Shown in pieces: positions 3,734 through 23,899 of a stretch of DNA of 64,000 bases. Each line of letters begins with the position of its first letter. Position 1 is the stretch's first letter. The DNA is from Desmodus rotundus. Taxonomy: Eukaryota > Chordata > Mammalia > Chiroptera > Phyllostomidae. The stretch is taken from positions 15,219,082 through 15,283,081 of the forward strand of contig NC_071397.1 in NCBI RefSeq assembly GCF_022682495.2, in the 5' to 3' direction. The notes beneath the pieces are model-generated. The model made no database searches. It worked only from the letters and a program-made list of their open reading frames with translations, and had not been told where the DNA came from. Position numbers and translations under genes: made by a program.

Positions 3734-3739
3734 TTTATT
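3734..3739 (-). terminator. DEFB110: Polyadenylation signal of DEFB110
   Basis: Minus-strand AATAAA about 115 bases after the DEFB110 stop codon, a normal distance for a short beta-defensin 3' UTR. No repeat lies between the stop and this site. Confidence 0.55.
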
Positions 3740-3853
3740 TAATTCCTTGTGTATTACAGAGATACACAGGCCTTGAAAGATGTGTTGGGAAGCCTTAATA
3801 ACATCGGTCCTCTCTTCATGGACCATGTGTCTCTTTCGTTTCTTCTGCCATCT

Positions 3854-4002
3854 TTACTTCTGCAAGCAGCAATGAGTTGCAGGTCGCATGCAGTAAGCAA
3901 TTCTAATTTCATTTTCGTGGCACTCATGTTTACACCGACCATTACCCTTTTTGCACTCTCTCCTCAAATCCAAGCTACCATACTGGGGATATTTCTTTCT
4001 GG
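3854..4002 (-). CDS. DEFB110: DEFB110 exon 2 (six-cysteine beta-defensin domain)
   Basis: Second coding exon of DEFB110. The acceptor is CTTACAG after a pyrimidine-rich run, and its first two bases (CC) complete the phase-1 codon from exon 1 to give Ala19. The frame then runs 48 codons to TAA at 3856-3854. The mature part starts with a basic stretch ([14 protein letters not shown]) followed by the canonical pattern C35-X6-C42-X3-C46-X9-C56-X6-C63-C64, ending LQK. Known family chemistry pairs C1-C5, C2-C4 and C3-C6. Segments such as [10 protein letters not shown] and THCCLQ match human DEFB110 as remembered. I count 12 Lys/Arg against 5 Asp/Glu after the signal peptide, so a strongly cationic secreted peptide is expected. 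No lesion is visible. Expression and killing activity cannot be judged from sequence; human DEFB110 belongs to a cluster usually linked to the male reproductive tract. Confidence 0.92.
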
Positions 4003-4339
4003 CTGTAAGAAGGAAAGAAGGACTGAAATTAGCAACCTAGCTATGATACACCCATGTTTTAAAAGGAGAAAGTTCAGGAGGCAAAAGTTGATAGAACAGA
4101 GCAAAAGGCCGCACTTCTAATTGATGGCTCATCCATTGGTGCAAGGTCGATCATGGAAGTCAGACAGTATCTTGGACCTAAGTGAGGTGTGTCATCTTGC
4201 TGCCTTACAAGTTAACCAGATAGTAATTGAAAGATAGCTCCCAAAGTCAACAGGAAGAAGGTGTCCATAATTTATCTTCTGTCAGGTTTAGCCTTTACAA
4301 TCCTCTAATTGTATTTGGAATCCCCTTTTCTGCTTTCAC

Positions 4340-4708
4340 AAACATTATTTAGATGGAATGGACAATTAGATGATTGTCCTAAAATAGTGACAGACTCACG
4401 GATAGAGAGCAGGCTGACAGATGTTGGGGGTTGGGCTAGGTGGGGTCTGTGGAGGGATTGAGCCAAAAAGGAAAAAAAGAAAAAACTCATGGGCAGGGAC
4501 AACAGTGCGGAGATTGCTGGGAGGAAGTGGAGTGGAGGGAGGTGGAGGTGGGAATAGGGGTGAAAATGGTGACAGATGGAGACTTGACTTGGGGTCATGA
4601 ACACAGAATACGATGTACAGATGCTGTGTAGTGGAATTGTCCTCCTGAAATTTATATAATTTTGATAACCAGTGTCACCCTAATACATTCGATAAAAAAT
4701 AAAGTAGA
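4340..4708 (+). mobile_element. LINE-1-type 3' UTR fragment
   Basis: A purine-rich block beginning around 'gacagactcacggatagaga' and ending 'ccagtgtcaccctaatacat' before an A-rich tail. The same family recurs at 16.6 and 26.8 kb. It lies within the DEFB110 intron. The family name is a recognition call. Confidence 0.55.
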
Positions 4709-4795
4709 AAGTTGAGAGAGGGGCAACGTTAGGCAATTTGACTTTCTACAACTCTCGTGGGTATTTTAGGGTTTACTTCCCCAGAGAATGATCTA

Positions 4796-4967
4796 GCTAG
4801 CTCAGCTGGTTACAGTATCAACCCTACATGACAAGGTTGTGGGTTCTAGCCTCTGGGCACGTGTGAGAATCAATCAATGAATGCACGAATAAGTGAAACA
4901 AGGGAGAGATGCCTTCCCCTCTCTCTCCCTTCCTCCAGCCTCTAAAATCAATTAAGAAAGAAAAAGA
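4796..4967 (+). mobile_element. Ves-type SINE (diverged subfamily)
   Basis: tRNA-derived head 'gctagctcagctggtta', B-box-like 'aaggttgtgggttctagcct', CT-rich tail and A-rich end. Perfect 9-base target duplication aatgatcta at 4787-4795 and 4968-4976. Lies in the DEFB110 intron. Confidence 0.8.
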
Positions 4968-6049
4968 AATGATCTAACTTAGACACATGTCTGATGACAA
5001 CATAGATTTAAAAAAACGGGAATGTCTAGAAGGTGTGGTCAATGTTCACCATAACCTGATTTCTGAAATTACCGGGGCTCCAGGCTACGTGTTTTTTCCT
5101 GCAGCTTGGAGATTAACAGAATACAAGTTCATTATTTAGGATAGTTGAAGATACTTGGGGAGTTGGGGGATGGGTCTGAAAGGCTACAAGATTTATTCCA
5201 AGACAAATATGTTTTAATTTTATATTTCTCATTATAGGCTGGCTCATGCGTTTTCAGAATCCCTTTGTTTTGGCATCTTTTTTTTTTCTGTATACACATC
5301 ACTTTTGATAAGTAATGGCCTTACTCATACAGTGAGATTAAGGGCAACTGGTATGGGAGAATTCTAAATTCTGCAGGTGTCTGACCGAACAGTAGACTCA
5401 AGTATTTTTGTATATTTGTGGTATGAAATCAAATACATTTTTCCATTAGTTTCTACCATTAATTACAGTTTTATATCCCAATCAGTCCCTTTAAAGGCCA
5501 GGCCTTTCTTCCTAGACATTCTGTCTGCATTTCCAACAGTTGGTGGTGAGTAATCATACTTATTAGTAACCCAGACTCAAGCCACATTATCTGTATGGTT
5601 GGTATAAATAGCTGATATAAAACCTGGCTTTTCCATTAAAAGGAGCTCTCTTCTCACTATAACTGTAGAGGTTCAGAATATGGCATATAGCAGAAAAAAA
5701 ATTATTATTCTACACAGATTAAATGTTCACTTGTAAGTATTATTATTTAGTGTACAATTTCTTAGGAATTATTATTATCAAACTATATATCATTTGTTAG
5801 TGACAGAAATCTGAATTTTACTCACTTTAGACAGAGCTCTGTCATATTTGACATTATTGTTCAATATTCACTATAGTCCAATTGACCTCACACCTCTCTT
5901 GTTAACTCTTTGTCTTATTTCACCTTTCTAAAACTGTGGTCTCTTTTCTTCTCTCTCTGACCTCTAAGTGTAAGTATTCCCCAATATAAGTGTCTTTGGA
6001 TCACTAATATTCATCTTCGCAAGCATGCATCCACTCATTCAACAATTAA

Positions 6050-6373
6050 GTACAGCTGACCCTGGAACACGATAGGGTTTAAGGTCACCAACCCCCTACA
6101 AAATCAGAAATCCAAATACAACTTTTGACTCTCCCAAAACATAACTACTAATAGCCTGCTGTTGACTGGAAGCCTTATCAGTAACATAAACAGTCAATTA
6201 ACACGTATTTGGAATAGTACATGTATGATATTCTGTATTCTTATAATAATGTAAGCTAGAGAAAAAGTGCTATTGAGAAAATCATAGGATGAAAAAGTGC
6301 ATTGTTTTTATTTTAAAAAATCTATTTGTAATTGGACTCACACAAGTCAACCCTGTGTTGTTCAGGGTGCAAA
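6050..6373. mobile_element. Tigger/MER2-like DNA transposon
   Basis: Inverted ends 'gctgaccctggaacacgata' and 'aaccctgtgttgttcagggt', with the internal block 'actactaatagcctgctgtt' typical of this family. Lies in the DEFB110 intron. Confidence 0.65.
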
Positions 6374-6411
6374 TGTATACTCCACATTAAGTTCCCTGCC
6401 CATCTCTAGAG

Positions 6412-6632
6412 CAGGGCTTCTCACCCTAAGCATATTGACCTTTGGGTTGGACAATTCTTTGCTGTCGGATACTATCCTTCCTGTTCACTGAAGGATGTTT
6501 AACAGCATCCCTGACCTCTACCCACCAAATACCAATAGTACCAGTTGTGACAACCTAAAAGGTTGCCTAATGTTGCCAGACATTGCCTAATATTTCCTCG
6601 GGGGCAAAGCTGACTCTCATTTAAAACCACTG
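6412..6632 (-). mobile_element. MER20 (hAT-Charlie), antisense
   Basis: 'acagcatccctgacctctac' and 'ttgccagacattgcctaat' are the reverse complement of MER20. Ends 'aaaccactg'. Confidence 0.7.
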
Positions 6633-8784
6633 TTCTTGTGATGCTGTGATTAAGCCAAACATATATTGTCTCTCCCCTCAGATATGTTGTTCAAATACAA
6701 TATCTTCTCTCTGGAATCTGCTGATCACTTTCAAGAGAGTAATTTCTCTTTTCATTATTCTCATCTGTAACATTCATATTGCATACTTAGAGGACTTCTT
6801 TAAAACGATATATAAAGTCCTAGTTAATACATAAACTAGAAATGAGCTAGATAATTCCTAAAATATTTTCAACCCATAATTTCTTATTTTTACTCATCTG
6901 CTATTTTATTCTTTAGTCTACCATTCACCTCCTTGGAAACGGGGACAATGGTGTTCACCCTTTTAGCACAAAACTATACGATCTGCCCTATAATCAGAGT
7001 ACATACCAAATATAAAGAAAAGTGATTATTGGCAAAAGCACACTTTTCAATTTGACAGATAAAATGAGACAATAGGTGATAATAAAATAATACCTCATTT
7101 CTAGACATTGAGTGTATTCATAAACTCTAGCAAATGAAGAAGAAAACTAAGTGACTTCACTGGAAATTTCCCTGATTAGAAAATTTAAGGACTTTTATCT
7201 AGACATTTTTTCATCTGTAAAGCACTTGAGTGGGAATAAGTTTACTTATCTCAGTTTTGAGTAAGAATTTTTGCCCTTTGGAGGTGAGATTTTAAAAACA
7301 ACTGAGGAATGCTAAAAGATTGACATACAAATGACATGTAATCGCATGCAATTCAGTTCAACCACCACATGCTGGTGAACTAACTATAAGATGAAAGGCA
7401 AGATTTTTATTATTTCCTAAAATGTCTATATTCTATATTACACATCTTATAATTTTGTGGGGAAAATATACTCATATATCTTGATATACTTCTTTTGCTT
7501 TGGGATTTTTTTGGTTGATAATGATGAAAGTTACCGAAAACTTTTGCACACTGCAATTAACAAGGACAATGACGTCATTTTGTAAATATAATAAAAATAT
7601 ACATATAGTTAACCTTGATGCTGTAATCTATGTCACTATATCCCCAAGAAGTTTGTAATTTATAAGACTACAAGACACACAAATTTTTAAGTTTGTTGAT
7701 AAGTGCATGAATAAATTTAGTTATCATAGGGACATATGATGGGGCTGTTATAAGGAAAAATAAGCTAATAAAGCATAAAAACACTTGTCATAGTGATATT
7801 ATTAATGTTAGTTAGCTATTGATGAAATTAAAAAGATAAAATTTATCCCATGTTATTAGAATTTTATCTTGGCTCTTTCTAGAACTGAAAAAAACTAAAG
7901 ATCTTTTTCTAACAATTTTTAAATGAAGGAAGAGGAAGTTATTCTTAGCTAAATTAACAACAGCATTACTTTGTTAACTTTGTTGATGCTTGGGCCCTAT
8001 TTAGAATTTATCCACTTGCAATCTTCAAGTGATAATTGATCAGTTATTTATGTGTAAACATTTAGATTGTTATAATGGACTCTCTAATATTCATAATGAA
8101 AGATAAATTAATTTAGTCTCCTAGACCTCAGTTATGACTTCTATTAGGTCTAAAAAAAGTCATCCAGGTACTAAAAACAAATATTTTCCAGTGAGTTAGG
8201 GAATTTGAGTCTGGTTTCAGTGCCAGCATCATAAACTGGGTAGACTCGAACCCATCCTCTCACCTTATGCTCTTTAAGAGGAAGGGAATAGACTCAATGG
8301 TTGCTCCACCTCCAAAACTTATTATTCTACTTACGTGCACTTAATACTTACACGTTAATTCAGAGAAGAGAATCTTGTTACGTACCTGATGTGAAGAAAC
8401 AGTCCTTGAGGGGGAAAAGTTCTCATGAAAAGTAGAGCTCATACACTAGGTATTATACTCAATATTCGTGTGGTCTGTAGCACTCAAATATACAAGAGTA
8501 GTGACTAGAAATATTTAAAGAAAGGCCAAGAAGGGACATGATTTGCTTGTAATACCAAGAACAGAATATTAAGAAAGGCTTTCTAGTCATTGGAAGTAGT
8601 ATGCTTAGCATAGGTTTTAAAAAAGGAAACGGTAAATAGATTATTCCCGAACACTGTTTGCTACTCCTTACCAGTTGATTTTGCTAAAGAATATTTTTTT
8701 TTCCAGCAAGAATAGATTGTAACCTACTGTTGCTGCACGATGAAGTTGATGAGACTGATGTATTGATCTTATAAGTTTCTTTTT

Positions 8785-9045
8785 AACTTTTCATCTTGAA
8801 ATTATTTTAGATTTATAGGAGAGTTGCAAAAATAATAAAGGCCAACTTCCCCTCTGCTAATATTCCACTTAACCACAACACATTTATCAAAATTGAGAAG
8901 TTGTCATTGATGTAATACTATTAACTAAACTATAGACTTCACTTATGTTTCACCTGTTTTCAAACTATTGTCCCCCTTTATTTTTCTGTTCTAGAGTATC
9001 ACAATGCTTTTGGTATAAAAAATGCTTTAATCCCTATGTTTTTAC
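8785..9045 (-). mobile_element. Old LINE-1 3' UTR (L1M), antisense
   Basis: Plus-strand 'tattttagatttataggaga' and 'actattaactaaactataga' are the complement of a common L1M 3' UTR. It ends about 75 bases from the DEFB110 leader donor, inside the intron. Confidence 0.6.
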
Positions 9046-9123
9046 CATGCTTTTAACAAGAAATAACTGATTGTCTCCTCAAATTCATTAGTACAAATAT
9101 ACCCATAAATGTTTCTAAGTTAC

Positions 9124-9178
9124 CTGGTAAAATTGTGACCCAAAGGAGCAGAATAAAGAAAAAGAGATGAATCTTCAT
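9124..9178 (-). CDS. DEFB110: DEFB110 exon 1 (beta-defensin leader exon)
   Basis: This exon encodes the secretion signal of a beta-defensin, a small cationic antimicrobial peptide released from epithelia. Read on the minus strand, the ATG at 9178-9176 (G at -3, a good initiation context) opens 18 codons reading MKIHLFFFILLLWVTILP, then one extra base before a GTAAC donor, so the intron is phase 1. That is the usual beta-defensin leader: basic N-terminus, hydrophobic core, exon end right after the signal peptide. It matches the human DEFB110 leader as I remember it at nearly every residue. The spliced product is 67 residues (18, plus one split-codon Ala, plus 48), the same length as the human protein. 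The intron to the cysteine exon is about 5.1 kb. Too short for ordinary ORF finding. Orthology is from memory, but reading frame, splice phase and length all agree. Confidence 0.9.
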
Positions 9179-9261
9179 GGCAGAGAGTTTCTTAGGAAAA
9201 AAGTGTCCACAGATCTTCTTTTTTAAGTCAGGATTTTCACATAAGGAAACAGAGAACCCTT

Positions 9262-9273
9262 TTTTATTTATAG
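9262..9273 (-). promoter_or_regulatory. DEFB110: TATA box of DEFB110
   Basis: On the minus strand this reads TATAAATAAA, about 85-95 bases upstream of the DEFB110 ATG. Transcription would start about 30 bases downstream, leaving a 5' UTR of roughly 55-60 bases, typical of a beta-defensin. The paralogous leader at 23.9 kb has the related sequence CATAAATGAAA at the same aligned place, beyond a retroelement insertion. Confidence 0.6.
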
Positions 9274-21578: not shown

Positions 21579-21725
21579 TTACTCCACAGGGTCACCTTCT
21601 TTTATGCAGCAATGAACTGCAGATATTACACAGTATGTCATCCTGAATTTTTTTTCACCACATTGCTTCTTACATTGACCACAGCTTTTTATATGCATCT
21701 AAATGATTAAAGATAGCATGATGAT
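21579..21725 (-). pseudogene. DEFB112: DEFB112-like cysteine exon, broken
   Basis: Last exon of the DEFB112-like locus. On the minus strand one frame reads KSCGQCKKQCGEKKFRMTYC and then VISAVHCCIKEGDPVE before TAA, giving C-X2-C-X3-C-X9-C-X6-CC. The spacing after the second cysteine is perfect beta-defensin, but the first loop has 2 residues instead of 6. The human-like N-terminal part (DHHAIFNHLDAY, compare GHHITF in human DEFB112) is in a different frame, and there the C1 codon looks like TAT (Tyr). Remembered human DEFB112 therefore aligns best with a 2-base deletion before C2 plus loss of C1. The tail stops about 20 residues early, and LEIPIHKKED beyond the stop still resembles the human tail. 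The exon opens after GTAAAG, which matches phase 1. Most likely a pseudogene; a short-loop variant read from another acceptor is less likely because TAG precedes the cysteine frame. Confidence 0.75.
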
Positions 21726-21871
21726 CTTTACTTGAAGTTGAAAGAAGGCAAGAGTGGATGGAATTAATAATCCGAGATGCCAAGATTTAATAGAAGACAC
21801 AAAGAAACACAGATCACAGAAGAAAAGGAAAAAAACTTAGTGACTTCATGATTGAGATAAAGACTAAAACA

Positions 21872-22095
21872 GCTCTGACGGGTGTGACTGACTGGGTTGG
21901 GCATCATCCTGCAAAGCAAAAGATTGCAGATTCCACTTCTGATCAGGGCACATCCCTAGCTTGTGGGTTTGGTCCCCGGTTGTGGTGTTTAGGAGAGGTA
22001 ACTGTTGTGTTTAGGAGAGAATGTTTAATGTTTCTCAGCCTGGACTTTTGTTGCTCAAATGTCTCTTCAAGTTACTTCAAGTTATTTTAATTATA
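21872..22095 (+). mobile_element. Degenerate Ves-type SINE in DEFB112-like intron
   Basis: 'gctctgacgggtgtgactga', 'gcaaagcaaaagattgcaga' and 'gatcagggcacatccctagc' are diverged Ves blocks. The right end is unclear. It lies between the cysteine and middle exons of the DEFB112-like locus. Confidence 0.65.
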
Positions 22096-22554
22096 AAATC
22101 CTTGGAATTAATAAGAACACCTTAATTACTTTTTCTATGTAACAATATATTTTTATGTATCCAAAGATATCAGGATTATGGACAATGGTGACTGGCAAAA
22201 AAAAAAAATTAAGAAGAAAAGTGAGACAGCAATTTGACTCCTAAGCATAACAGCACTAACAACATTAAAAAAAAAAATGCTGAGAGCAATGGCTACAGAA
22301 TTTTCCCTCCCAGAAATAGTAAAGACATTTGTCTAGACAGAGTTTCATCAAAAGTGAGACCTAAGACTTTAAAATAAGAATTCTTTCTCATTTTGAACAT
22401 AAAATTCAGCATTTATTAAATGGGAAGGTGAAAGACGAGAAGAGCTAAATACATAGGGACTGGCACAGAGAACATATTTAAGCTATTTTCTTCGTTGCAC
22501 TTGACAGATAGTAATTAAAATGCACAATATATAATTCTACTTGTTTTATTTTAC

Positions 22555-22698
22555 CTGTGTTGTTTTGCTCTGTACCATTTTGTGCCTTTTCAAATATTGT
22601 GACAGAATTATGTGTCTTTAAGTTTAGTTTCTCGAGCTTCTGTCTGTATATGATTGTTGATAATGGCATAGGATTGTTAACAGGTTGGCCAGAGCCCA
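22555..22698 (-). pseudogene. DEFB112: DEFB112-like middle exon (open)
   Basis: A 144-base block read on the minus strand between a TTTTGCAG acceptor and a CAG/GTAAAA donor. It is open in one frame and encodes ...RQKLEKLNLKTHNSVTIFEK and then AQNGTEQNNT, which closely resembles the N-terminal region of human DEFB112 as remembered (RLKLEK..., STIFEKARHGTEK). Both borders are phase 1, so it fits exactly behind the leader at 23.9 kb (G+TG gives Val) and in front of the cysteine exon. Human annotation starts translation at a Met equivalent to the ATG at 22669-22667; the acceptor here suggests the real gene structure has a separate signal-peptide exon. This exon has no visible lesion, unlike its neighbours. 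It is typed as pseudogene because the locus as a whole looks broken. Confidence 0.7.
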
Positions 22699-23841
22699 CT
22701 GCAAAATAAAAAAAGTTACTTCAAAAGTATAAGAAAAAAGATATTTTGAAATAAGGACACTAATATATTTGTTTTCATATCATGATATTATATACAATAA
22801 GAGGTTTTAGAAAATGATACATATGTGGTACATATTTCTCTAAAATTGGGCTGAATATATAAATGAAAGTCTTGGTGACTAATATGATTCATTCACATGG
22901 CTATTGTAAGGAGTAATTAATTAATGTTGACAAAAGGCAGAAGAGATTCTGGCTATTAAAGTCATTATTAAGAAAAAAAGCATAGGCCCATATTGAAATC
23001 TAGATAAATCTAGATAATATCTCAGAAAATTTCTAGAAATGCATGGAATTTTAATGAGCATGTTCTAATGAAATTTTAATAAAGATGATGAAGAAAATAA
23101 TTATTCTTATTTAAGTTATTTCCAACTTCTTGAATTACATGAGTTACAATATTAATTAAAGTTTAGCTACTTGTCCTCTTTTGGTGAGAAATTTTCAGCT
23201 AAAAGCTAGTTATGTTGGCATATTATTAGAGCAGGGTAGAAATGAAAGAATAGGATATAGTAGATTTATTTTATGTTGACCTCATTTGAACTCAATAATA
23301 ACAGATATCTTGGTAATCCGGGGAAAGTAGTAAGATAAAGAAGAAGAATTTAACTGAAAGTGAGTAAATGCACAGCTAGTCTCAGTTTTAAACATAATAA
23401 AACTTGTACTTTTAGATAACAATTTAACCTCACATAACCTCTGCTATCAATATTACAGTGTGGTATAAATAATTTCCAAGCATAAATTTATTCTATTCCC
23501 ATTAAAATTTTATTAGTATATTAAATTTAGTAGAACTTGAATATTGAATAAATGCACATTTCAGGGATTGATTCAATGTAGCACTAATCCAACTTATGTA
23601 TATAGATATACTCATACATATAATGTCATGCAAAGAAAGTGCATTATGACCTTTACTAGTGTATTGCCCCTGAAAATGTATTCACATGTTTTCTCCATGT
23701 AGAAGCTGTAAATAAATATAATGTGGTCTTGCTGATGGTATTATTGGAATGTTTCTATAATGTTAATAATATTCGCTTAAAAAATTCTGAACCCATTTTC
23801 CCCTTCTGGGCTGACCTCACTTACAATAATATTCATGTTAT

Positions 23842-23899
23842 CTGGTAGAATGAAGATGGCAACAAGGAATAAAATAAAGAAAAAGAGAAAAATCTTCAT
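23842..23899 (-). pseudogene. DEFB112: Beta-defensin leader exon, donor site lost
   Basis: Minus-strand ATG at 23899-23897 opens MKIFLFFFILFLVAIFILP, a signal peptide clearly paralogous to the DEFB110 leader; the DNA is near-identical codon by codon with one extra codon. In DEFB110 the exon ends CCAG/GTAAC. Here the same place reads CCAG/ATAAC, a single change (plus-strand T at 23841 where DEFB110 has C) that destroys the donor. Without splicing the frame runs on to a TAA near 23777. A cryptic GTAAGT lies 17 bases downstream but would give phase 0, which does not fit the phase-1 middle exon. Assignment to the DEFB112-like locus rests on position, strand and splice phase. A standalone duplicate leader is the alternative. 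Confidence 0.7.

Follow-up and report, generated by a model that had tools for sequence, protein, structure and literature searches.

DEFB110 is a known beta-defensin gene, which has already been named in Pteropus vampyrus, Pipistrellus kuhlii and Rhinolophus ferrumequinum. For cattle, the available part of one report gives DEFB110-1 and DEFB110-2 as alternative transcripts of one locus with one common end, and counts DEFB110 with the 50 transcripts that are most specific to, or enriched in, the epididymis (PMC11521603). Further sources, available in part, describe DEFB110 in the epididymis of goat and sheep (PMC7833257) and, for human, in a cluster of caput cells (PMC7471510), and state that mice lacking Defb41 had altered sperm motility and oocyte binding (PMC11117649, PMC9982321). 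In the present analysis a 64,000-base stretch of the vampire bat Desmodus rotundus (C11:15219082-15283081, contig NC_071397.1), called the window below, was found to carry what we regard with high confidence as an intact orthologue of mammalian DEFB110, with one leader exon serving two alternative terminal exons, 2a and 2b. That this gene is DEFB110 is nearly certain, and its use in this animal we infer.

Structure and identity of DEFB110

Two short coding exons were read on the minus strand (Table 1). Exon 1 encodes the leader MKIHLFFFILLLWVTILP and the first base of codon 19, starts with an ATG at 9178 (context GCCATGA) and ends at 9124 with a canonical phase-1 donor (CCAG|GTAAC). Exon 2a begins behind the acceptor TTCTTACAG|CC (TTACAG|CC), which is likewise canonical and in phase 1, with 17 pyrimidines in the 18 bases right before the AG, and it closes with a TAA stop at 3856-3854. 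When the two exons were joined by script, a product of 67 residues was obtained, composed of 18 leader residues and 49 others, and the span from ATG to stop was 5.3 kb.

Thus the split gene described in the original prediction, with two short exons 5.1 kb apart, phase-1 splice sites, leader, six-cysteine spacing, stop, TATA box and AATAAA, was recovered by direct reading, and every one of these elements could be located. Its two-exon model was correct for exons 1 and 2a but incomplete, since a second terminal exon lies downstream of 2a; the interval then given covers the gene as described there, while exon 2b lies beyond the first base of the window and so outside its view. The remark that plain ORF calling misses the gene is true, but it is equally true for any spliced gene with short exons.

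Table 1. Features of the DEFB110 locus (window positions unless a contig or locus is named)
Feature	Position	Strand	Basis or remark
TATAAA, candidate promoter element	9272-9267	minus	94 bases upstream of ATG; sequence only
DEFB110 coding exon 1	9178-9124	minus	55 nt; direct reading and tblastn matches of DEFB110 proteins
Phase-1 intron	4003..9123	minus	5121 bases; sequence reading
DEFB110 coding exon 2 (2a)	4002-3854, including stop	minus	reading and tblastn, down to 1e-33
Beta-defensin domain, residues 34-64	3866..3958	minus	Pfam PF13841, E=2.6e-9; six cysteines
AATAAA, candidate exon 2a polyadenylation signal	3739-3734	minus	sequence only; overlaps ATTAAA at 3743-3738
Exon 2b	C11:15213597-15213464 = L009:4516-4383 = window -5484 to -5617	minus	intact, in phase
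DEFB112 remnant	21582-23899	minus	broken; 12.4 kb further on from DEFB110

The PF13841 domain of the joined product scored 37.8 bits against a cut-off of 22.2, and it was found again at the same place in a whole-genome search; PF00711 remained below its cut-off for this product (13 of 21 bits). The cysteines are spaced C-x6-C-x3-C-x9-C-x6-CC. A six-cysteine pattern with a first gap of 3-9 residues had a single match in the window and one match in 40 first-order Markov sequences (0.025 each), and because the pattern is so rare in simulated sequences a chance origin was rejected. When the first gap was allowed from 2, one more match appeared in the window, which was the frameshifted remnant of DEFB112. 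The signal peptide on exon 1 is a predicted one, recognised by its hydrophobic run and its conservation, and a two-exon design with the signal peptide on the first exon is that of a beta-defensin. The fold was predicted to resemble those of solved beta-defensins, with an N-terminal helix and a three-stranded sheet, from an alignment that was made without P0028 and P0029 and that includes 4 of the 12 DEFB112 proteins. Beta-defensin disulphides join C1-C5, C2-C4 and C3-C6.

A search of 5.8 billion proteins gave 37 candidates, all of which were kept as homologues. The best was beta-defensin 110 of P. vampyrus (97% identity), followed by five at 79-84%. A 110 name is carried by 30 of the 37, the other seven being two unnumbered 'Beta-defensin' entries, '17' of a hamster, '41-like' of a wood mouse and three uncharacterised or hypothetical proteins. 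By tblastn the P. vampyrus protein matched exon 2a of the window at E=1e-33 and exon 1 at E=5e-8, and 27 DEFB110 proteins of the exon 2a type matched exon 2a at 2e-19 to 1e-33. This tblastn check, proposed together with the original prediction and run with P. vampyrus and other DEFB110 proteins, thus matched both exons, and the identification as an intact split DEFB110 of a bat was supported by PF13841, the protein search, tblastn and the joined frame.

The P. vampyrus protein (P0001) is the same at 65 of 67 residues in an ungapped alignment from the first Met to Lys67; residue 12 is L in this bat and F in P. vampyrus, and residue 44 is H and L, respectively. P0001 extends two residues beyond the stop of the present gene (window 3851-3856), so either the stop differs between these relatives or one of the sequences is wrong. 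The gorilla entry (P0003) has Phe instead of the fourth cysteine. No match was obtained for the window in Rfam, nor were there any in NCBIfam or in plasmid records.

The alternative terminal exon 2b

Eight of the homologues (P0030-P0037, three of them named isoform X2) have the same leader with a different defensin domain at the end. This type of domain was not found inside the window by tblastn with 10 proteins. In a buffalo entry (P0028) a piece of exon 2a runs on into exon 2b, and the alternative exon was therefore expected downstream. It was found in the 10 kb preceding the window (L009), 9.3 kb past the exon 2a stop, 14.6 kb from exon 1 and 5.5 kb before the window, so that its absence from the locus was rejected. 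Exon 2b is open, has the acceptor TTGCAG in the same phase as 2a and a TAA stop followed by AATAAA, and corresponds to the alternative product P0030-P0037 of other mammals. Together with exon 1 it encodes a precursor of 62 residues, whose defensin domain was recognised by PF13841 (E=2.1e-5). With a leader exon and two terminal exons, the locus is built as an alternative-last-exon gene, in which one leader exon would supply either 2a or 2b, and in this it agrees with the alternative DEFB110-1 and DEFB110-2 transcripts of cattle. A literature search on DEFB110 together with isoforms and alternative splicing found no paper.

Another segment of the window (6761-6687, minus strand) aligned weakly (E=0.002) with the opening part of a beta-defensin 110 predicted for Propithecus (P0025). 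It was rejected as an exon, for there is no GT at the needed donor place.

It is quite unlikely that the gene is intact and unexpressed, or a young pseudogene whose frame survives through shortness of time. The broken neighbour DEFB112 in the same genome would suit such a history, but the frame, splice sites, six cysteines and stop are all intact, the second terminal exon is intact likewise, and the same design is kept in orthologues from elephant to rodents.

Charge of the peptide

Charge was calculated from K, R, D and E counted from residue 20 on. The table of charges comprised 26 of the 37 homologues, leaving out P0010, the entry of a second sheep, and P0028-P0037, which are products of alternative, chimeric or aberrant type, while the counts for single residue columns used 27 sequences with P0010 included. 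In the original prediction the changes relative to human were placed mostly in the mature part. Human was replaced by the gorilla entry P0003 in the present comparison, and the differences, at 2 of 18 leader and 10 of 49 later positions, agree with that statement.

It had also been suggested that the peptide is more cationic, and this did not hold, since its charge of +7 is mid-range among the 26 orthologues (median 6.5, range 1-11) and basic residues 37 and 41 are common. Higher values were calculated for 11 orthologues (Rhynchocyon, Camelus, Pipistrellus, Rhinolophus, P. vampyrus, hippopotamus and five ruminants), equal ones for Lutra and Carlito, and lower ones for 13; the +8 of P. vampyrus is owed solely to the extra Arg at its end. 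K or R was present at residue 36 in 14 of 27 sequences, at residue 37 in 21 of 27 and at residue 67 in 15 of 27 (the position is missing in 4), and R at residue 41 in 22 of 27, gorilla among them. His44, found in none of the 27 orthologues, was the only unusual residue of those compared.

That the bat peptide was driven to be more cationic, with an antimicrobial effect above that of its counterparts in other mammals, is very improbable. Gorilla and Nasalis do stand at +5 against +7 here, with Met and Gln where this bat has Lys37 and Lys67; however, with the bat value near the median, 11 orthologues above it and 13 below, and with residues 37 and 41 basic in most sequences, it is gorilla and Nasalis, not this bat, that deviate from the common basic residue 37. 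Measured against gorilla, with its Met37 and Gln67, the charge gain is therefore largely an effect of the yardstick chosen.

Gene order, other defensin loci and possible function

On C11 a 114-like exon (15178321) is followed by a 113-like exon (15191945), DEFB110 and the DEFB112 remnant, each of them on the minus strand; we take the neighbouring exons to be probably 113 and 114 from their sequence. DEFB110 thus occupies the position expected of the orthologue, between the DEFB113-like exon and the DEFB112 remnant. As far as the available part of the cattle report goes, the gene order on cattle chromosome 23 matches this one and the shorter cattle DEFB110 transcript spans 5.2 kb, against 5.3 kb here, whereas DEFB112, which is broken in this bat, is entered there as a gene and is included in the testis expression table (PMC11521603).

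DEFB112 (P0038-P0049) is like DEFB110 in its place in the cluster, in a paralogous defensin exon and, in some entries, in the leader, but the two are distinct genes, and the primate entries of DEFB112 that were read carry an extended tail. The copy of this genome is broken. Its leader-like exon (23899-23843) has CCAG|AT at the donor place, against CCAG|GT in DEFB110, and its defensin exon (about 21750-21582) has Tyr at the place of the first cysteine and continues in another reading frame, a shift explained by a net deficit of two bases between the sites of cysteines 1 and 2, as judged by eye against beaver and primate proteins. Neither piece reaches PF13841. In addition, an open counterpart of the unusual first part of human DEFB112 was observed at window 22669-22550 on the minus strand (40 residues aligned at 55% identity), and a GT stands close to its end. 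The broken copy is consistent with a report, available in part, in which fewer than three of the bat species studied were found to have DEFB112 (PMC10562630). That the feature in the window is itself a different beta-defensin such as DEFB112 is hardly credible, for although DEFB112 proteins also match exon 2a (E about 4e-11 to 4e-7) they score far lower than the 27 DEFB110 proteins, so that the better match to another defensin named beforehand as a refutation was not found, and a separate DEFB112 remnant sits at the expected place.

In the whole assembly (2.12 Gb, 574 contigs) 27 defensin places were detected, eight of which were turned into loci; the places on C13 and C11 were read in part, and the other C6 places were left unread. 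One of the eight loci (L005) is the DEFB110 of the window, and the other seven are different defensins by translation. A repeated block with two beta-defensin exon types, presumably related to DEFB105 and DEFB107 by their sequence, was observed at C13:2805000-3146000 (2.81-3.14 Mb; L014-L021). Eight 10-kb stretches sampled seven tandem copies, 51-53 kb apart save for a single interval of 67 kb. All seven copies have the second exon type intact and five the first, which in the other two shows a frame change and stops. Matching pieces above 1.5 kb are 95-100% identical, mostly 97-100%, and one pair of stretches shows 100% identity along 9.4 kb, so an assembly duplication must be excluded for this array. 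The parts available of two reports state that the copy number of a six-gene beta-defensin block varies in human (PMC3263423) and that beta-defensins were single-copy in the bats studied, except DEFB119 and DEFB121 in three species (PMC10562630). Among the matches listed by a literature search there was no paper on a bat beta-defensin array, which is no proof that it is unreported.

As to the function of DEFB110, the leader would direct the peptide into the secretory pathway, with cleavage near Pro18/Ala19, and the mature peptide would adopt the helix-plus-three-strand fold of beta-defensins with three disulphides. If cattle, goat, sheep and human are taken as a guide, the epididymal epithelium would be the most likely source, with secretion into the lumen, where maturing sperm, and perhaps microbes, may be the targets of the peptide. 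A role in the epididymis as a secreted peptide with an effect on sperm is likely, and antimicrobial activity is possible; the orthology of mouse Defb41 to DEFB110 is only putative, one wood-mouse homologue being the one named beta-defensin 41-like.

The exon 2a form would yield the basic 67-residue precursor and the exon 2b form the 62-residue one with a near-neutral defensin domain, net charges from residue 20 being +7 and +1. It is conceivable, though quite unlikely, that with DEFB112 dead these two DEFB110 peptides split the former work of the pair, the choice of terminal exon setting the charge of luminal defensin. The importance of the locus lies mostly in annotation: a conserved defensin gene is confirmed in a bat, exon 2b is added to it and DEFB112 is shown to be broken.
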